From Anaerolineales bacterium (GTDB taxonomy: Bacteria; Chloroflexota; Anaerolineae; Anaerolineales; UBA4823): a DNA stretch of 64,000 bases. The DNA lies in the NCBI GenBank assembly GCA_003105035.1, contig PQAL01000005.1:124001-188000 (forward strand). Direction: 5' to 3'. The notes below the pieces were generated by a model that was not told the DNA's origin, searched no databases, and worked only from the letters and a program-made list of their open reading frames with translations. The translations under genes and the position numbers were made by a program. The number at the start of each line of letters is the position of its first letter. Position 1 is the stretch's first letter. Shown piece after piece: positions 57,174 to 63,999 of the stretch.

Positions 57174-57239
57174 TCATCCTCCAAAACCAAGTCATTTAGT
57201 GGTATAAGCACTGATATCCCTCGCATTGGAATGTGTTTT

Positions 57240-58568
57240 ATGACCTTGCGTTCCTACATTCAAAGTCTGGAAGATTCTGGTGAGTTGCAAAATCTCAGCA
57301 GCCCGGTTTCTAAAACCTATGAAATGGCTGGTGTCCTAAAGCAGCTGGAGCCATGCCCGGTACGATTTGAAAAAGTCAAAGAAAGTACTTTTCGGGTGAT
57401 GGGCAACCTGCTGTGCACAAAAGCTGCGCTTGCCCGCTATCTGGGTATCGATGTAAAGGAAATCATCCCCACTCTGGCAGATGCAATTGGGCATCACTCC
57501 CCGTGTCCGGTAGTAAATGAGGCTCCCTGCCAGGAGGTGGTGACCGATCAACCAGACCTTGATCTCTTGCCGATCTTACGCCACTGCGCAATGGATGGCG
57601 GTAACTATATCAGCTCAGGTGTGTTCATTGCCCGGCACCCGCGTTATGGTCAGAATCTTGACTTCCACCGCTGCATGCAGATCTCCAAGACCCAGATGGC
57701 TATCCGCGTGGTCCGCGGTCGTCATTTTCACCAATATTTGGAGGAAACGGGAGCACTGGATGTAGCTGTCTGTGTTGGTGTCTCACCCGAGTTGCTGATA
57801 GCAGCTGCGACGTCGGTTGAGTTGGGAGTGGATGAGTTGGAAATCGCCAATGCATTATCTTCTCGATGCTTACATGAACCACTCAACCTTGTGCATGCCA
57901 AATCGATCGACCTGCTCGTCCCTACTGAAGTCGAATTCGTTCTAGAAGGCACAGTATATAACGACCGCCGGCACACCGAGGGGCCATTCGTTGACCTTAC
58001 CGAGACCTACGATATCGTCCGTGACGAGCCGATCTTTGAGGTCAAAACGATTACCCACCGTAAAGACGCCTTTTGGCATGCCCTGCTACCTGGTGCTCTT
58101 GAGCATAAACTGCTGATGGGCATGCCACGCGAGCCAACCATTTTCAAAAAAGTGAATGAAGTGGTCAAGTGCCTGGATGTGAACGTCAACCCAGGGGGTT
58201 GTTCCTGGCTGCATGCCATCATCCAGATCGACAAGCATGCTGAAGATGATGGCAAAAAGGCTATTCAGGCAGCTTTTGCAGGTCATCGCTCGTGTAAGCA
58301 TGTGTTTGTGGTCGATAAGGATATCGACATCTACAACCCGCAGGAAGTGGAATGGGCCTTTGCCACTCGCTTCCAGGGTGACACCGACCTGATCATCCTA
58401 CCCAGAGAACCAGGCTCAAGTCTGGATCCATCCAGTGAAGTCACCCCGGTTGGTAAACACCTCACCACCAAGCTTGGCTTTGATCTCACTAAACCACTCA
58501 CCACCCAGGGTAAAGATTTCGAGAAAGCACTCTTCCCCGTGGTTGATATGGCAAAATATCTCAAGTAA
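57240..58568 (+). CDS. UbiD-family decarboxylase, archaeal anhydromevalonate-phosphate-decarboxylase-like
   Basis: This prenylated-FMN-dependent decarboxylase is 442 residues from the ATG at 57240, which begins the usual MTLRSYI start; another ATG is three codons earlier. The cofactor region is DGGNYISSGVFIARHP (about 119-134). The carboxylate pair of the active site reads TEGPFVDLTETYDIVRDEP: Glu247 and, in place of the second Glu of most UbiD enzymes, Asp252. That sequence, together with LLMGMPREP and KHVFVVDKDIDIYNPQEVEW (split here for length), is typical of the archaeal UbiD group that contains anhydromevalonate phosphate decarboxylase. The next two genes encode AcnX subunits, which make that enzyme's substrate. 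Confidence 0.88.
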   Translation: MTLRSYIQSLEDSGELQNLSSPVSKTYEMAGVLKQLEPCPVRFEKVKESTFRVMGNLLCTKAALARYLGIDVKEIIPTLADAIGHHSPCPVVNEAPCQEVVTDQPDLDLLPILRHCAMDGGNYISSGVFIARHPRYGQNLDFHRCMQISKTQMAIRVVRGRHFHQYLEETGALDVAVCVGVSPELLIAAATSVELGVDELEIANALSSRCLHEPLNLVHAKSIDLLVPTEVEFVLEGTVYNDRRHTEGPFVDLTETYDIVRDEPIFEVKTITHRKDAFWHALLPGALEHKLLMGMPREPTIFKKVNEVVKCLDVNVNPGGCSWLHAIIQIDKHAEDDGKKAIQAAFAGHRSCKHVFVVDKDIDIYNPQEVEWAFATRFQGDTDLIILPREPGSSLDPSSEVTPVGKHLTTKLGFDLTKPLTTQGKDFEKALFPVVDMAKYLK

Positions 58569-58625
58569 TCTTCGGCATACGATGAATGGTGGGTGTGAGG
58601 AATTGATCTCCTCAAAAAGGGAAAT

Positions 58626-59819
58626 ATGCAGCTAACGCTTGAAGAAACGCAGATGCTCGACGGCAAGCATGGCAAGGCAGTGCAAAAAGCCATGCAAATT
58701 CTGGTGGCGCTCGGGAACATATACGGCGCGGAGCGCATGATCCCCATCACCTCAGTGCAGGTAGCTGGGGTAAGCTACGACAACCTGGGTGAGGCTGGCT
58801 TGCAGTTCCTTTCAGGGTTGGCGGATGGTGGTGGTAAAGCCCGCATCCCGACCACCCTCAACCCGGCAGGCATGGACATTGAGAATTGGCCTGCCCTTGG
58901 GATTCCAGCTGAATTTGCCGAACGACAGTTGCGTGTAATTGAGGCCTTTTCTCGAATGGAGATAGCAACTACCTGTACTTGCACGCCCTATCTCATCGGT
59001 AACCTGCCCTGCCTCGGAGATCATCTGGCCTGGTCTGAATCCTCAGCCGTTTGCTATGCCAACTCCGTGCTCGGGGCTCGCACCAACCGGGAAGGCGGTC
59101 CATCTGCCCTGGCGGCAGCCCTTACCGGCCGCACACCCGAGTACGGGCTGCACCTCGATATTAACCGTCAGCCTGAACTTTGCTTTGAGGTGGATGCCCA
59201 ATTACGGGAGAATAGTGATTTTGGGGCATTGGGTAAAGTCATCGGCGACAAAATCCAGGCACTGCGGCAGGTGCCGTTTATCAAGGGTGTGCCATCTGCC
59301 ACCCTCGAAAACCTAAAATCCTTCTGTGCCAGCCTGGCCACTTATGGAGGTTCAGCCATCTTCCATATAGCAGGCATCACGCCTGAAGCAGGCCTGTACA
59401 AGCCTTCCCAAAACACCCTCAGGATTATCCAAACTGACCTGGATAATGCCAGGGATATGCTCAATGATGCCGATCAGCAGGATGTTGACTTCATCAGCCT
59501 GGGCTGCCCACATCTTAGTCTGGGCGAGGTCGCCCGCATTGCTCAGCTCCTCGACGGTCGGCTGGTGAGAAAGGAATTCTGGATCACCACCGCCCGCCCG
59601 ATTAAACAACAGGCGGATCAGCTAGGTTATACAAATATTATTGAAGCAACTGGAGCCAGGTTTGCCACCGATACCTGTTGTGTGGTCGCTCCCATCCGTG
59701 AGCGCTTCAAGGTAATGGCCACTGACAGTGCCAAAGCCTGCTACTATGCTTCTGCTAAGAACAGGTTCAAAACAGTGTTCTTACCCTTTGATGAAGTAGT
59801 CAGGTTGGCACTGAAATGA
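58626..59819 (+). CDS. AcnX large (catalytic) subunit, phosphomevalonate dehydratase-like
   Basis: This 397-residue aconitase-X catalytic subunit (DUF521) has Fe-S-region cysteines in CTCTPY (117-122), GCPHLS (293-298) and DTCCVV (349-354). It starts with the family pattern LTLEETQMLDGKHG. Two-subunit AcnX proteins of archaea dehydrate 5-phosphomevalonate; other bacterial AcnX proteins dehydrate cis-3-hydroxyproline. The preceding UbiD gene favours the first. The stop overlaps the small-subunit start by 4 bases. Confidence 0.9.
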   Translation: MQLTLEETQMLDGKHGKAVQKAMQILVALGNIYGAERMIPITSVQVAGVSYDNLGEAGLQFLSGLADGGGKARIPTTLNPAGMDIENWPALGIPAEFAERQLRVIEAFSRMEIATTCTCTPYLIGNLPCLGDHLAWSESSAVCYANSVLGARTNREGGPSALAAALTGRTPEYGLHLDINRQPELCFEVDAQLRENSDFGALGKVIGDKIQALRQVPFIKGVPSATLENLKSFCASLATYGGSAIFHIAGITPEAGLYKPSQNTLRIIQTDLDNARDMLNDADQQDVDFISLGCPHLSLGEVARIAQLLDGRLVRKEFWITTARPIKQQADQLGYTNIIEATGARFATDTCCVVAPIRERFKVMATDSAKACYYASAKNRFKTVFLPFDEVVRLALK

Positions 59820-60241
59820 GCTATCATGGCCGTAGTATTTATAATGGCAAAGCAAGAGGCCGTCTCTTGGTCTCCTCCCAGGCTATCTCGTTCTTCGGCG
59901 GTGTTGACCCTGAGACTGGGGTGGTGGTTGAGCGCGGCCATGACCTGGAAGGGCAATGCATCTCCGGTAGGGTTTTGGTTTTCCCCACTGGTAAGGGATC
60001 TACAGTTGGCTCTTATACCTTATACCGACTGAAACATAATGGCCATGCCCCGATCGCCATCTTGAACGCGGAATGCGAAACCATCACAGCAGTAGGCTGC
60101 ATTATTGCTGAAATTGCCTGCGTTGACCAGCTATCGATCCATGAGCTCAAGACCGGCTGGATGGTTTCTATTGATGAAGGCTTGATCGTAATTGAACAAG
60201 AATCAGGGTACTCTCTGGAGGAGCAAGCTCATGAAGAATAG
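59816..60241 (+). CDS. AcnX small (swivel) subunit, DUF126
   Basis: This 141-residue swivel domain completes AcnX. Family hallmarks are FFGGVDPETGVVVERGHDLEG (residues 26-46, split by position) and PTGKGSTVGSY (about 59-69), which helps bind the substrate phosphate or carboxylate. ATGA overlap with the large subunit shows strict coupling. Confidence 0.92.
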   Translation: MSYHGRSIYNGKARGRLLVSSQAISFFGGVDPETGVVVERGHDLEGQCISGRVLVFPTGKGSTVGSYTLYRLKHNGHAPIAILNAECETITAVGCIIAEIACVDQLSIHELKTGWMVSIDEGLIVIEQESGYSLEEQAHEE

Positions 60242-61406
60242 ATCCTTATTAATGATCCCAGGCCCAGTGGAATTTGAACCTGCTGTCTTGGCGGCTATGG
60301 GCGAGCCTACCACAAGTCATCTGGCTGTTGATTTTATCGAAGCGTTCAGCCAGGTACTGCAAGACTTGCGCCGCGTATTCGAAAGCCCGTCTGGGCAACC
60401 ATTACTATTAGCTGGCTCAGGCACTCTAGCCATGGACTGTGCCGGCGCTAACCTGATCGAGCCAGGGGATAAGGCACTGGTTGTGGACACAGGTTATTTC
60501 TCTGAGCGCTTTGCCCTTATCCTGCAGCGTTATGGGGCTCAGGTGCAGCGAGTCACTGCTCCTCCTGGAAGCCGCCCAAGCCTCGAGCAAGTCAAATCCA
60601 CCCTTGATGCCGATGCCTACAAGCTGCTGACCATCACGCATGTAGATACCTCCACCGCGGTGATTACCGAAGTAGAGCAGTTGGCCAGGCTGGGGAAGCA
60701 GTACGGCTGCCTGGTCGTCGTTGATGGTGTGTGCTCAGTGGCTGGTGAAGTGCTGATGATGGACAAATGGGGTGTGGACCTGGCTCTGACTGCTTCGCAA
60801 AAGGCACTCGGCGTTCCGCCCGGCCTGGCAATATTGATGATTGGCACACAGGCCCTGGAGAGATTCCAAAAACGCTCAACCCCCGTGTTGAATTACTATG
60901 CCGATTGGGCCAATTGGCTACCCATCATGCAAGCCTATGAAGCCCGTAAGCCCAGTTATTTTGGCACTCCGCCCGTAAATCTGATAGTTGCCATGCAGGT
61001 CAGCTTGAAGCAAATTTTAGCTGAGGGGATGTCCAGGCGATCCACCCGGCATATCGCCATCAGCCATGCCTGTAAGGCTGGCATCCAGGCACTTGGCTTG
61101 ACTCAGGTGCCTCTCCAACCGGAATTTGCCGCCCATACCCTCACTGCTCCACGCTACCCGATCGGAGTTAATGGACAGGAATTCCTGGCCAAGGTGCTGG
61201 CGGCTGGGGTCACTCTTGCCGGTGGACTGCTGCCGAGCATCCGCAGTGAGTATTTCCGCATCGGGCATATGGGTGCGGTCACACTAGGCGATGTGTTAGC
61301 CACCATCAGCGCTATTGAAACCGCTCTGGAGGGTTCAGGTTATAAGTTCACCCCCGGCATAGGGATCGAAGCTGCCCGAAGTTCAGGGAAGATACTCTCC
61401 AGCTGA
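60231..61406 (+). CDS. Class V aminotransferase (alanine/serine-glyoxylate type)
   Basis: This 391-residue fold-type I PLP enzyme has the lysine at 191 in TASQKALGVPPG, the PLP-phosphate loop GSGTLAMD (62-69), the ring-stacking region DTGYFSERF (86-94) and Asp165 in VVVDGVCS. These are shared with alanine-glyoxylate, serine-glyoxylate and serine-pyruvate aminotransferases. The ATG at 60231 follows GGAGGAG and overlaps the AcnX small-subunit stop by 11 bases. No aminotransferase is needed in the known anhydromevalonate route, so its presence is unexplained. Confidence 0.88.
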   Translation: MKNRSLLMIPGPVEFEPAVLAAMGEPTTSHLAVDFIEAFSQVLQDLRRVFESPSGQPLLLAGSGTLAMDCAGANLIEPGDKALVVDTGYFSERFALILQRYGAQVQRVTAPPGSRPSLEQVKSTLDADAYKLLTITHVDTSTAVITEVEQLARLGKQYGCLVVVDGVCSVAGEVLMMDKWGVDLALTASQKALGVPPGLAILMIGTQALERFQKRSTPVLNYYADWANWLPIMQAYEARKPSYFGTPPVNLIVAMQVSLKQILAEGMSRRSTRHIAISHACKAGIQALGLTQVPLQPEFAAHTLTAPRYPIGVNGQEFLAKVLAAGVTLAGGLLPSIRSEYFRIGHMGAVTLGDVLATISAIETALEGSGYKFTPGIGIEAARSSGKILSS

Positions 61407-61550: not shown

Positions 61551-61952
61551 TTATAACTGCTTCTTTGACAGGAAATACTCCTTCATCGGCTCAAAATACG
61601 ATTCCACCCAGCCTTCTTCATACTGTTTTCCATGAGGTGGCAGGCCAGTGTGCCGCAGGGTGAGCCTGGTCTGGTCACCTTCCTCAACCAAGGTAATCTC
61701 AATGCGAGAATCAGGCTCATCGGGACTAAACTCAGTGGTTCGCCATAATTGTACAATGTGCTTCCCAGGAAGAAGCTCCAGCGTCTTCCCGTGGATATAA
61801 CCATCCCAGGCATCGAACTCACCACCCACGTTGGATGCGACAGTTGCCGGGCTGCCCGTCATGGCTGAGTGGCCATCCGAACTCAACCAGGCATGATAGA
61901 TTTCCATTGATGTAGCAGGGAGTAATGCAGATACGGTAAACTCTATTGTCAT
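61551..61952 (-). CDS. SRPBCC/AHSA1-domain protein
   Basis: This 133-residue START-like lipid-binding fold has the AHSA1 pattern MEIYHAWLSSDGHSAMTGSPA at about 15-35 and ending RLTLRHTGLP, then EEGWVESYFEPMKEYF. It binds hydrophobic ligands in relatives; the ligand is unknown. It lies on the minus strand after the terminator of the selenoperoxiredoxin gene, so it has its own promoter or is read through. Confidence 0.85.
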   Translation of the reverse strand: MTIEFTVSALLPATSMEIYHAWLSSDGHSAMTGSPATVASNVGGEFDAWDGYIHGKTLELLPGKHIVQLWRTTEFSPDEPDSRIEITLVEEGDQTRLTLRHTGLPPHGKQYEEGWVESYFEPMKEYFLSKKQL

Positions 61953-61963
61953 CGTTCACCTAT

Positions 61964-61992
61964 AAAAAACCCGGAAGCGTAATGCTTCCGGG
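61964..61992 (-). terminator. Rho-independent terminator of the peroxiredoxin-glutaredoxin gene
   Basis: CCCGGAAGC and GCTTCCGGG form a nine-base stem around a five-base loop, followed on the minus strand by a run of six Ts. It begins 8 bases after the stop codon at 62000. Confidence 0.93.
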
Positions 61993-61999
61993 CAATTGG

Positions 62000-62770
62000 T
62001 TATTTTGTGATTTTTTCCTTTACGGCGGCTTCGACCTTCTTCTCGTCAAAGCCCACCAGGATGGTGCCTTCAATATCAAAGCTTGGGGTTGTGCGGGTGC
62101 CGTTCGCCCACTTTTTTACCTGGTCAGCAGCACCGGGGGTGACGTCAATATCCACCTCGGTATACTCCACGTTGTTCGCCTGGAACCAGGCACGAGCCCG
62201 GCGGCAACCAGGACACCAGCGCGTACAGTACATCACCACACCCCCGTGAGGCAAACGGATCTCATCTGGATTTATCGGAGGAGGTGCCGGACTGCGTAAA
62301 GCAGCTTCAGGGTCTATACGGCGCAGCACTTCCAGCACGACATCATTGTCGGGCTGATGGTCAATATCATGGATATCGATGTAGCGGATATATCCACGCT
62401 TATCAATGACGAAAATCGCTCGCTCGGTATAACCATCCGGCTCGCGGAACACCCCATACAGTTTTGCCACCCTGCCGTGCGGCCAGAAATCACTCATTAA
62501 TGGGTAGTTTATGCCACCCAGAGATTCCGCCCAAGCTTTCAGGCAGGGAACATGATCAACACTTAGGCCCAGAACCTGGGCATCCAATCCCTCGAACTTG
62601 GCTTTATCAGCCTCATACGATGGGATTTGGCCCGTTCAGATGGGCGTCCAGGCCAAAGGAAAGAACACCAGAACCACATTCTTGCCGAGGTAATCACTCA
62701 GCTTGACGTCCTTATCCAAATGAGATGGTAAAGAAAAATCAGGCGCTGCCTGACCGACGTATAGTTTCAT
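62000..62770 (-). CDS. Selenocysteine peroxiredoxin-glutaredoxin fusion (in-frame UGA = Sec45)
   Basis: The gene is split by TGA at 62638-62636. Read through from the ATG at 62770 (AAGGAGG 5 bases upstream), it gives 256 residues. The peroxidatic site reads [10 protein letters not shown]45-TGQIPSYE, where peroxiredoxins normally have TPxC; Sec thus replaces the peroxidatic Cys exactly. The peroxiredoxin domain spans about 1-150, with a candidate resolving Cys76. A Pro-rich linker leads to a C-terminal glutaredoxin domain (about 172-256) with the redox pair in YCTRWCPGC and a cis-Pro in TRTTPSF. The glutaredoxin would recycle the peroxidase. A downstream-only frame from 62587 is what ordinary annotation would call. 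A nonsense mutation is the alternative, unlikely given the position. Confidence 0.9.
62600..62612 (-). promoter_or_regulatory. Candidate bacterial SECIS hairpin for the selenoperoxiredoxin
   Basis: In the mRNA, GGCU and AGCC pair around a GAUAA loop. The loop begins 27 bases after the UGA and starts with G, matching the spacing and loop rule of bacterial SECIS elements. The stem is only four pairs as drawn. Confidence 0.5.
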
Positions 62771-62813
62771 ATTTGCCTCCTTTCTGGTGTGCTATTTTAC
62801 ACCAACTTTAATG

Positions 62814-62859: not shown

Positions 62860-63075
62860 TTACTTAATGTCACGTGCAAAGAAAGGCCCTCCAAACAAAG
62901 GCGCAAATACACAAAAATTAAACAAACCTGCTACCAGGGGCACCAAACCGATGACTGCCAATATGATCCCTCCAGTACCGTGAATCACAGCCAGACCGAT
63001 AATGATCAGGGCAATCCCTGCCACGATGCGCAACAAACGACCAACCAACGAAGACATAAAGCGTGCGAAACCCAT
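62860..63075 (-). CDS. Small inner-membrane protein, DUF2892-like
   Basis: This 71-residue protein has two membrane helices (about 14-30 and 33-52), an N-terminus of the MGFARFMSSLVGRLLRIV type and the short FCVFAPLFG segment, as in YgaP-like DUF2892 proteins. The function is unknown. It has AAGGAG before the ATG. It precedes the selenoperoxiredoxin gene on the same strand but is separated from it by a terminator. Confidence 0.85.
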   Translation of the reverse strand: MGFARFMSSLVGRLLRIVAGIALIIIGLAVIHGTGGIILAVIGLVPLVAGLFNFCVFAPLFGGPFFARDIK

Positions 63076-63129: not shown

Positions 63130-63999
63130 TCATACATTTAGATAAACATGGGAGAAAAAAGTTACATCTCGCGCATGCGAAAAAACCTGGGTGATCAAAT
63201 CGTCTTCCTGCACACCGAACGGTTGCATGATGGCAGCAGCAGCCCGCAGCAGAAGCACCTTGTAACGTTCCTGGTCTACCGTGCGTACATCAGGAGGCTG
63301 AGGCAGGTCCCAGGCATGCACGCCCGGCTCACCCATGGTGTATACGAAGCGTACGCGCTGCCCGGGGCGCAAGTCCTTCCCAATAGCTGCCAGCTGAGCC
63401 GCCGCCCGGGCTGCGGGCGAGGGAGTGCGGTATTCAGAAAGCTCGCGGCTCAACGTCAGAGAAACCAGCAGGTCTTCAACCGGCACCTTGCCGGTACGCA
63501 GGCGGGTGAGGGCCCTGCGGATCAGGCTCAGGATTTTCGGCAGGTATGCAGAGCGGTCATCTACATTAGGTATATGCACCAGGGTATCGAGGATCTGCAT
63601 TTGCACATCCGATACCCAGGTAGGAGTGTCATGGCGCCGCACTTCAATGCCACGCATTTTCAACGAGCCATCCTGGAAAACACCAAAGTATCGGTTGGGC
63701 ACCGGCACGCGCTCATCCAGGCGCGACGGCAGGAAAGCCACCCAGCGGTAAATACCATCCAGGGCGATCGGCAGGCCGGTACGGTTGGTGATTTCATCCA
63801 GAAGGGGCTGGAAGTCTGGCACTTTGGCACAGCCCTTCTTCTTCACCCACAGGCCGTCCACATACATGTGCAGCACAACAAAGCCCAGGTCTTCAGCAGC
63901 CTCCTTGGCACGCAGCAGCATCTCGCGCCCATAGGCGGTTACCGCCTCATGTGCCTCGATGCGCCCAAAACGGGCATTCTTATAACCCAGGTAGCCAAA
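63130..63999 (-). CDS. DNA polymerase family B, C-terminal part (continues beyond the window)
   Basis: About 289 C-terminal residues are visible; the frame runs on past the right edge. It starts in the motif B region (GYLGYKNARFGRIEAHEAV) and continues through the palm motif C region as LHMYVDGLWV, then NRYFGVFQDGSLKMRGIEVRRHDTP in the thumb boundary (63640-63720). In motif C the usual YGDTDS is altered: by alignment the catalytic second Asp is retained (VDG) but the first is replaced. It is a replicative or repair polymerase of the kind often found in Chloroflexota. Confidence 0.85.
   Translation of the reverse strand, partial: FGYLGYKNARFGRIEAHEAVTAYGREMLLRAKEAAEDLGFVVLHMYVDGLWVKKKGCAKVPDFQPLLDEITNRTGLPIALDGIYRWVAFLPSRLDERVPVPNRYFGVFQDGSLKMRGIEVRRHDTPTWVSDVQMQILDTLVHIPNVDDRSAYLPKILSLIRRALTRLRTGKVPVEDLLVSLTLSRELSEYRTPSPAARAAAQLAAIGKDLRPGQRVRFVYTMGEPGVHAWDLPQPPDVRTVDQERYKVLLLRAAAAIMQPFGVQEDDLITQVFSHARDVTFFSHVYLNV

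Follow-up and report, generated by a model that had tools for sequence, protein, structure and literature searches.

A Candidate Selenocysteine Peroxiredoxin Fused to a Glutaredoxin-Like Domain and Interrupted by a Conserved In-Frame UGA in Anaerolineae

We describe a gene from an Anaerolineales bacterium that very probably encodes a selenoprotein, in which an AhpE-like peroxiredoxin (Prx) with selenocysteine (Sec) at the peroxidatic position, residue 45, is followed, after a short linker, by a mycoredoxin/glutaredoxin-like domain. As judged by comparison with homologous sequences, codon 45 is kept as UGA or, in the homologs that lack UGA there, is a Cys codon, and a hairpin just downstream of the UGA is under selection in the Sec genes. 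The glutaredoxin half probably serves to recharge the Prx half to which it is attached.

RESULTS

A 256-codon frame with one in-frame UGA. Within the window, by which we mean the whole 64,000-nucleotide stretch of DNA that was analyzed, the gene runs from an ATG at 62770 to a TAA ending at 62000 and contains a single in-frame TGA, with no further stop before the TAA. The initial annotation had described such a frame without stating its strand and had placed the TGA precisely where peroxiredoxins carry their peroxidatic Cys; translation and alignment confirm both points and assign the gene to the minus strand (Table 1). In place of the strong ribosome-binding site and terminator that it had claimed, there are a Shine-Dalgarno-like sequence and a terminator-like stem. 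What the standard code leaves of the frame is a 195-aa open reading frame (ORF) starting with TTG at 62587, and the active site is lost, as had been foreseen for ordinary annotation.

Table 1. Features of the fusion gene, in coordinates of the window
Feature	Position	Strand	Basis
Whole gene, 256 codons plus TAA, UGA codon 45 predicted to be read as Sec	62000..62770	minus	ORF translation, alignment
Shine-Dalgarno-like AGGAGG, 5 nt ahead of ATG	62776..62781	minus	sequence
AhpE-like peroxiredoxin domain, residues 5-131	62378..62758	minus	Pfam AhpC-TSA, 142 bits
UGA codon 45, peroxidatic position, P38-x3-T42-xx-U45	62636..62638	minus	alignment; 73 TGA and 7 Cys in 80 loci (best 80 of 258)
SECIS-like hairpin, nt 13 to 52 (U of UGA = 1), MFE -16.9 kcal/mol	62587..62626	minus	fold; synonymous-codon null
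Codon 76, Cys, candidate resolving cysteine	62543..62545	minus	Cys in 30/30 unbiased fusions
Glutaredoxin/mycoredoxin-like domain, residues 178-235	62066..62239	minus	Pfam Glutaredoxin, 44.6 bits; PDB comparison
Codon 182, further Cys of CxxxCxxC run, four residues ahead of CxxC	62225..62227	minus	invariant, 89/89
Glutaredoxin CPGC motif, C186 and C189	62204..62215	minus	invariant, 89/89 distinct fusions
Terminator-like 10-pair stem and T tail, directly past stop	61969..61993	minus	sequence

The gene has two neighbors on its strand, one for an AHSA1-type protein (61551-61952) and the other for a YgaP-like membrane protein (62860-63075). We looked for a common gene neighborhood across 81 loci, some of which end early at contig ends; the most frequent neighbor family was found in 12 of them, with variable place and strand, and the window had no member in any of the 14 commonest neighbor families listed. 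The fusion gene thus seems to stand alone. Elsewhere in the window, a partial family B DNA polymerase (PF00136, 55 bits) lies on the minus strand at the edge (63130-63999), and genes for UbiD, aconitase X, an aconitase X swivel domain, and a class V aminotransferase follow in a run on the plus strand (57231-61403), perhaps as one operon.

Conservation of the UGA among homologs. We surveyed 396 genomes of the class and found a match extending to residue 240 or further in 31 of them, including the genome under study, with one TGA in each match. Thirty of these matches, again including our own, were taken forward as loci, and the TGA of every one falls in a single shared alignment column. A scan of named genomes found 258 relatives, of which the best 80 were kept; codon 45 of these is TGA in 73, TGC in 4, and TGT in 3. 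The record titles of these 80 name Chloroflexota, Anaerolineae, and their genera, along with one "Candidatus Aquidulcis." Because the scan relied on a pair of peptide patterns, of which one required a Cys codon at position 45 and the other a Cys at position 76 (C76), the ratio of Sec to Cys among the 80 loci is skewed and these loci are no evidence for the retention of C76; the class set is free of this bias. Across the fusion loci, the remaining frame is open at 51 to 68% identity. The alignment thus bears out the expectation that homologs would carry Sec or Cys at codon 45, and in place of the scattered nonsense mutations that the initial annotation had named as contrary evidence, the 30 class loci have the TGA conserved in position.

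The class and named sets overlap, and their 110 rows represent 89 distinct genes (82 Sec and 7 Cys). In a tree of the 89 proteins, made by a quick method and with its root not inferred, three changes between Sec and Cys are needed, and the Cys forms sit within groups of Sec forms. Carriers with the TGA include Levilinea saccharolytica KIBI-1, Anaerolinea thermolimosa IMO-1, and Leptolinea sp. HRD-7 (a complete genome), all of which appear to be cultured, judging by their record titles. In a draw of 400 genomes from the phylum, the full-length matches were the genome under study and three others of its order, already in the class set; the other 12 matches (E of 1e-40 or better) stop at residues 153 to 168, where the Prx domain ends. 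Two Prx-like frames with two in-frame TGA codons each were also seen (G340:C44:16387-16854 and G272:C44:231900-232358); it is possible that these encode double-Sec proteins, or that one TGA encodes Sec and the other is a stop.

A hairpin after the UGA is under selection in the Sec genes. We compared folding energies with those of a null in which every codon was exchanged for a synonym sampled from the genes as a pool. In 45 windows along each of 30 genes, the strongest fold was found just after the UGA, with a mean z of -1.98 at +12. Seventeen offsets were compared for the 81 Sec genes that are distinct in the hairpin stretch; at the best of them, beginning 9 nt past the UGA codon, the mean z was -2.90, with 95% below -1. 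The sequence downstream of the UGA, which the initial annotation had suggested folding, therefore forms a stronger fold than synonymous codons would give. At this offset, folding energy was ordinary in the Cys genes (mean z, -0.07), of which there are 7, two of them from the same genome.

Of 12 named pairs, in a structure taken from single folds of the very sequences scored, Sec genes formed 10.20 on average, versus 7.29 for the null (best of 400 shuffles, 7.65). Cys genes also exceeded their null, at 8.43 versus 6.74 (best of 400 shuffles, 8.14), and their excess pairs are perhaps a relic of the hairpin. Pair types vary on both sides: for instance, +30/+36, which is paired in 69%, has CG, GC, TA, and AT, and +18/+47 of a second register, which is paired in 87%, has GC, TA, CG, and AT. 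The lower stem takes one register in 33 genes and the other in 46, with 2 ties. We think that these two registers are the reason why RNAalifold, applied to ungapped rows, found no consensus structure; per-sequence statistics were used instead. Rfam gave no match for the hairpin in the window. On the evidence of these sequence comparisons, we conclude that the hairpin is under selection in the Sec genes.

Sec machinery and the use of UGA. The genome (4.45 Mb in 43 contigs, 97.1% complete, with 4.1% contamination) has a tRNA-Sec gene, selC (72.6 bits; called by ARAGORN as SeC, tca), along with selA (555.7 bits), selB (335.3 bits), and selD (363.7 bits), each of the four above its family cutoff. 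All four genes that the initial annotation had proposed to look for were thus found, in a genome where their absence would have spoken against a selenoprotein. The selD gene (C25:31327-32262) itself carries an in-frame UGA (CAGUASK), making it a second Sec gene in this genome. TGA also terminates 22 of the 46 ORFs of at least 200 aa in the window and 25 of 80 fusion genes, 23 of which are Sec genes. It follows that UGA is not simply reassigned and that in those 23 genes it is used both ways within one gene.

We searched for tRNA-Sec in all 6 genomes with Cys loci and in 7 picked genomes with Sec loci. It was found (63.8 to 75.7 bits) in all 7 of the picked Sec-form genomes and in 2 of the 6 Cys-form genomes (those of L056 and L058, at 75.5 and 72.6 bits). 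In the other four Cys-form genomes (L076, L078, L083, and L084), whose fusion proteins make up one clade in the tree, the best scores of 37.3 to 42.3 bits are in the range of other tRNAs, and no tRNA-Sec was recognizable. In six of the 31 Sec-form class genomes, no tRNA-Sec scored more than 50.0 bits, and a further search, smaller and with relaxed filters, did not change this; completeness is 63 to 77% for four of these and 95% and 98% for the other two, which are in 220 and 480 contigs, respectively. Class-wide, no association was seen between tRNA-Sec and the fusion, as tRNA-Sec is present in 25 of 31 genomes with the fusion and in 269 of 365 without it. Its frequency across the class is high, at 294 of 396 genomes, and its co-occurrence with the fusion therefore gives no statistical support.

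Domains and nearest relatives. T42, Sec or Cys at position 45, C76, C182, C186, C189, and P229 are in place in all 89 distinct fusion proteins, so that the CxxC of the glutaredoxin domain and the Pro of its TP motif (P229) are present throughout. Among the 30 class loci, P38, T42, position 45, and R117 are invariant, which fits the AhpE-type motif Pxxx(T/S)xxC/U. Pfam Glutaredoxin was matched in all 62 of the fusions checked. A predicted model of the fusion had a pLDDT of 91.5 and a pTM of 0.85; its least certain part is residues 41 to 50 (mean pLDDT, 67), and such low values might fit a mobile active-site loop.

The nearest solved structure to the Prx half is Mycobacterium tuberculosis AhpE, both by sequence and by the predicted model. 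Foldseek gave 40 to 41% identity between the model and AhpE, and VIA-align gave a root mean square deviation of 1.6 Å over 153 residues, with a Z of 24.9 that was tied with those of other peroxiredoxins; VIA-align matches had good coverage for residues 1 to 159 only. When the glutaredoxin half alone was compared with the PDB, 7c10 was the best match, followed by 2lqo, which is Rv3198.1 of M. tuberculosis and which we take to be Mrx1. Among the NCBIfam matches listed (25 of 26), no model was matched at its cutoff. The mycoredoxin model TIGR02200 scored 42.9 bits (cutoff, 89.5) and the YruB model TIGR02196 scored 62 bits (cutoff, 88.55); judged by these profiles, the glutaredoxin half is related to both and a member of neither.

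Known families were also considered for the protein as a whole. It scored 78.9 bits against the PrxU equivalog NF040737 (cutoff, 270) and 25.6 bits against the HUGP/GUXX-star fusion selenoprotein NF045501 (cutoff, 325), the latter match being confined to the glutaredoxin part. Nor does it group with the Prx5-glutaredoxin hybrids, as its nearest solved relatives are AhpE structures and its residue 45 is encoded by UGA.

C76 in fusions and single-domain relatives. C76 is present in all 30 class fusions, which were found without regard to it. We compared these with 32 relatives that have no fused glutaredoxin, 12 from the phylum search and 20 hand-picked among class matches. None of the 23 Sec proteins among them has C76, and 6 of the 9 with Cys45 do. 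C76 is therefore not tied to the fusion as such; as far as these sequences indicate, it goes with the fusions and with some single-domain Cys proteins and not with single-domain Sec ones. In human Prx1, its place is that of Cys83, presumably an interface residue.

The single-domain peroxiredoxins with UGA at the peroxidatic position come from other genomes of the phylum (L129, L130, L132 to L137, L139, L144, L146, L147, L149, L151, L152, L154, L155, and L157 to L162), and in four cases (L146, L147, L154, and L158) the protein occurs alongside a fusion within one genome. An unfused arrangement was seen on a plasmid of Phenylobacterium zucineum (L141, 1243-2277), where a Cys Prx gene lies 12 nt ahead of a glutaredoxin gene in tandem. 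The glutaredoxin of this tandem has one Cys in its motif (WCGVT).

DISCUSSION

Several explanations could account for a TGA at this place in a Prx gene. One window considered alone, with a single TGA in one frame, would be compatible with a pseudogene or a sequencing error in which a Cys codon became TGA in one strain or assembly. The same TGA column is found in 73 of the best 80 of 258 loci and in every class locus, however, with the rest of the frame open despite the divergence of these genes, and the hairpin behind it is under selection, which makes such an accident exceedingly improbable. A change of code that gives UGA another meaning in this lineage, such as Trp, is also very unlikely, as is readthrough of the UGA without Sec. 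The frame would be open under such a code as well, but TGA serves as an ordinary stop for 22 of the 46 window ORFs noted above and for 23 of 73 Sec genes, the alternative residue at codon 45 is Cys in 7 of 7 cases, and the genome has a complete Sec system. Insertion of Sec at codon 45 is thus the reading with which we proceed.

Sec peroxiredoxins and Prx-glutaredoxin hybrids each have precedents. Of the former, the TxxU family is presumably that of PrxU of Eubacterium acidaminophilum. Sec peroxiredoxins of this family are described as carrying Sec in a TxxU motif of an AhpC-TSA domain, as the fusion does, and, unlike the fusion, they have no glutaredoxin domain named in the table of a recent review (PMC13188914). 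HUGP/GUXX-star (NF045501) resembles the fusion in being a selenoprotein with a glutaredoxin-like C-terminal part; it is listed there with two Sec residues, whereas the fusion has one (PMC13188914). A hybrid of like architecture on a Microvirga ossetica plasmid (L143, 1114-1971), Cys-type and annotated only as grxC, glutaredoxin 3, has only 24.8% identity to the fusion. We take its Prx half to be of the Prx5 type, and we likewise assume that the Prx5-glutaredoxin hybrids of Haemophilus influenzae and others are Cys-based. The hybrids known from H. influenzae and others are fused as here, but according to the published account their Prx is of the Prx5 type (PMC2757866). These hybrids and the Sec fusion look like independent fusions. 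The proposal that the present gene is a Sec version of the Prx-glutaredoxin hybrid is supported as to Sec and the fusion, but its Prx half is closest to AhpE, whereas the known Cys hybrids have a Prx5.

A Prx-glutaredoxin fusion is absent from Table 1 of the 2026 review of prokaryotic selenoproteins, which covers 119 families or subfamilies by its authors' count (PMC13188914). A literature search by title, in a collection of mainly open-access papers other than bioRxiv preprints, likewise showed no earlier Sec Prx-glutaredoxin fusion among the matches listed. Sec peroxiredoxins and Prx5-glutaredoxin hybrids are therefore already known, and it is the Sec-containing, AhpE-like Prx-glutaredoxin architecture that appears to be new.

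The closest known parallel is the pair formed by AhpE and Mrx1 of M. tuberculosis, which are like the two halves of the fusion: AhpE is the nearest solved relative of one, and Rv3198.1 is the second-best match of the other. Mrx1 is described as reducing AhpE directly or via mycothiol (PMC4360819; a similar account is given in PMC8945050). In M. tuberculosis these are two separate Cys proteins, and AhpE is called one-Cys; the fusion, in contrast, is one chain with Sec45 and an extra cysteine, C76. Because the halves resemble AhpE and its reductant, the fusion can be regarded as joining a known pair, in the manner of a Rosetta stone. The description in the initial annotation of a peroxidase carrying its own reductant is probably apt.

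The distribution of C76 suggests a relay from Sec45 through C76 to the CxxC. In the mechanism that we propose, SelB and tRNA-Sec would insert Sec at UGA 45, and Sec45 would attack peroxide and become a selenenic acid, which C76 would resolve by forming an Se-S bond. The C186/C189 pair of the same or a partner chain would then reduce the Sec45-C76 bond, and the oxidized CxxC would in turn be recharged by thioredoxin reductase and thioredoxin or by a low-molecular-weight thiol. The genome encodes a thioredoxin reductase (378.6 bits). No bshA was found over the cutoff in this genome (119.6 versus 273.7 bits), and the mshC model scored 310.6 bits against a cutoff of 485.1, in a match that is perhaps a cysteinyl-tRNA ligase.

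Alternatively, the protein may be a Sec Prx whose glutaredoxin half is not its reductant, with C76 in a structural or interface role, thioredoxin recycling the enzyme in trans, and the fused domain serving other clients. We regard this as possible though rather unlikely. The thioredoxin reductase would allow for recycling in trans, C76 also occurs in single-domain Cys relatives that have no glutaredoxin attached, and an interface role would accord with the residue that we take to be its counterpart in human Prx1. On the other hand, every one of the 89 distinct fusions has the CxxC, adjoining Prx and glutaredoxin genes are found in Phenylobacterium, and the separate AhpE and Mrx1 are reported to function as such a pair (PMC4360819). 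On balance, we lean slightly toward a self-contained, one-chain selenium peroxidase, in which Sec45 would take the oxygen, C76 would form the Se-S bond, and the CxxC would clear it. AhpE and mycoredoxin would then exist as a covalent machine in many Anaerolineae, and three lineages would have swapped Sec for Cys, apparently in that direction, with decay of the hairpin and, in one of them, no recognizable tRNA-Sec.

Taken together, these observations place a selenoprotein architecture that is missing from the table of the 2026 review (PMC13188914) in 31 of 396 class genomes and in strains that appear to be cultured. Ordinary gene finding would truncate the gene and lose its active site. The bacteria that carry it are mostly anaerobic. 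By having both in a single chain, the fusion hints at how a Prx and its reductant belong together. The Cys forms, with their decayed hairpin and in some cases no recognizable tRNA-Sec, provide matched pairs for asking why a peroxidase keeps Sec, and if the one-chain reading is true, the Cys lineage without a recognizable tRNA-Sec would be a natural experiment on what selenium buys.
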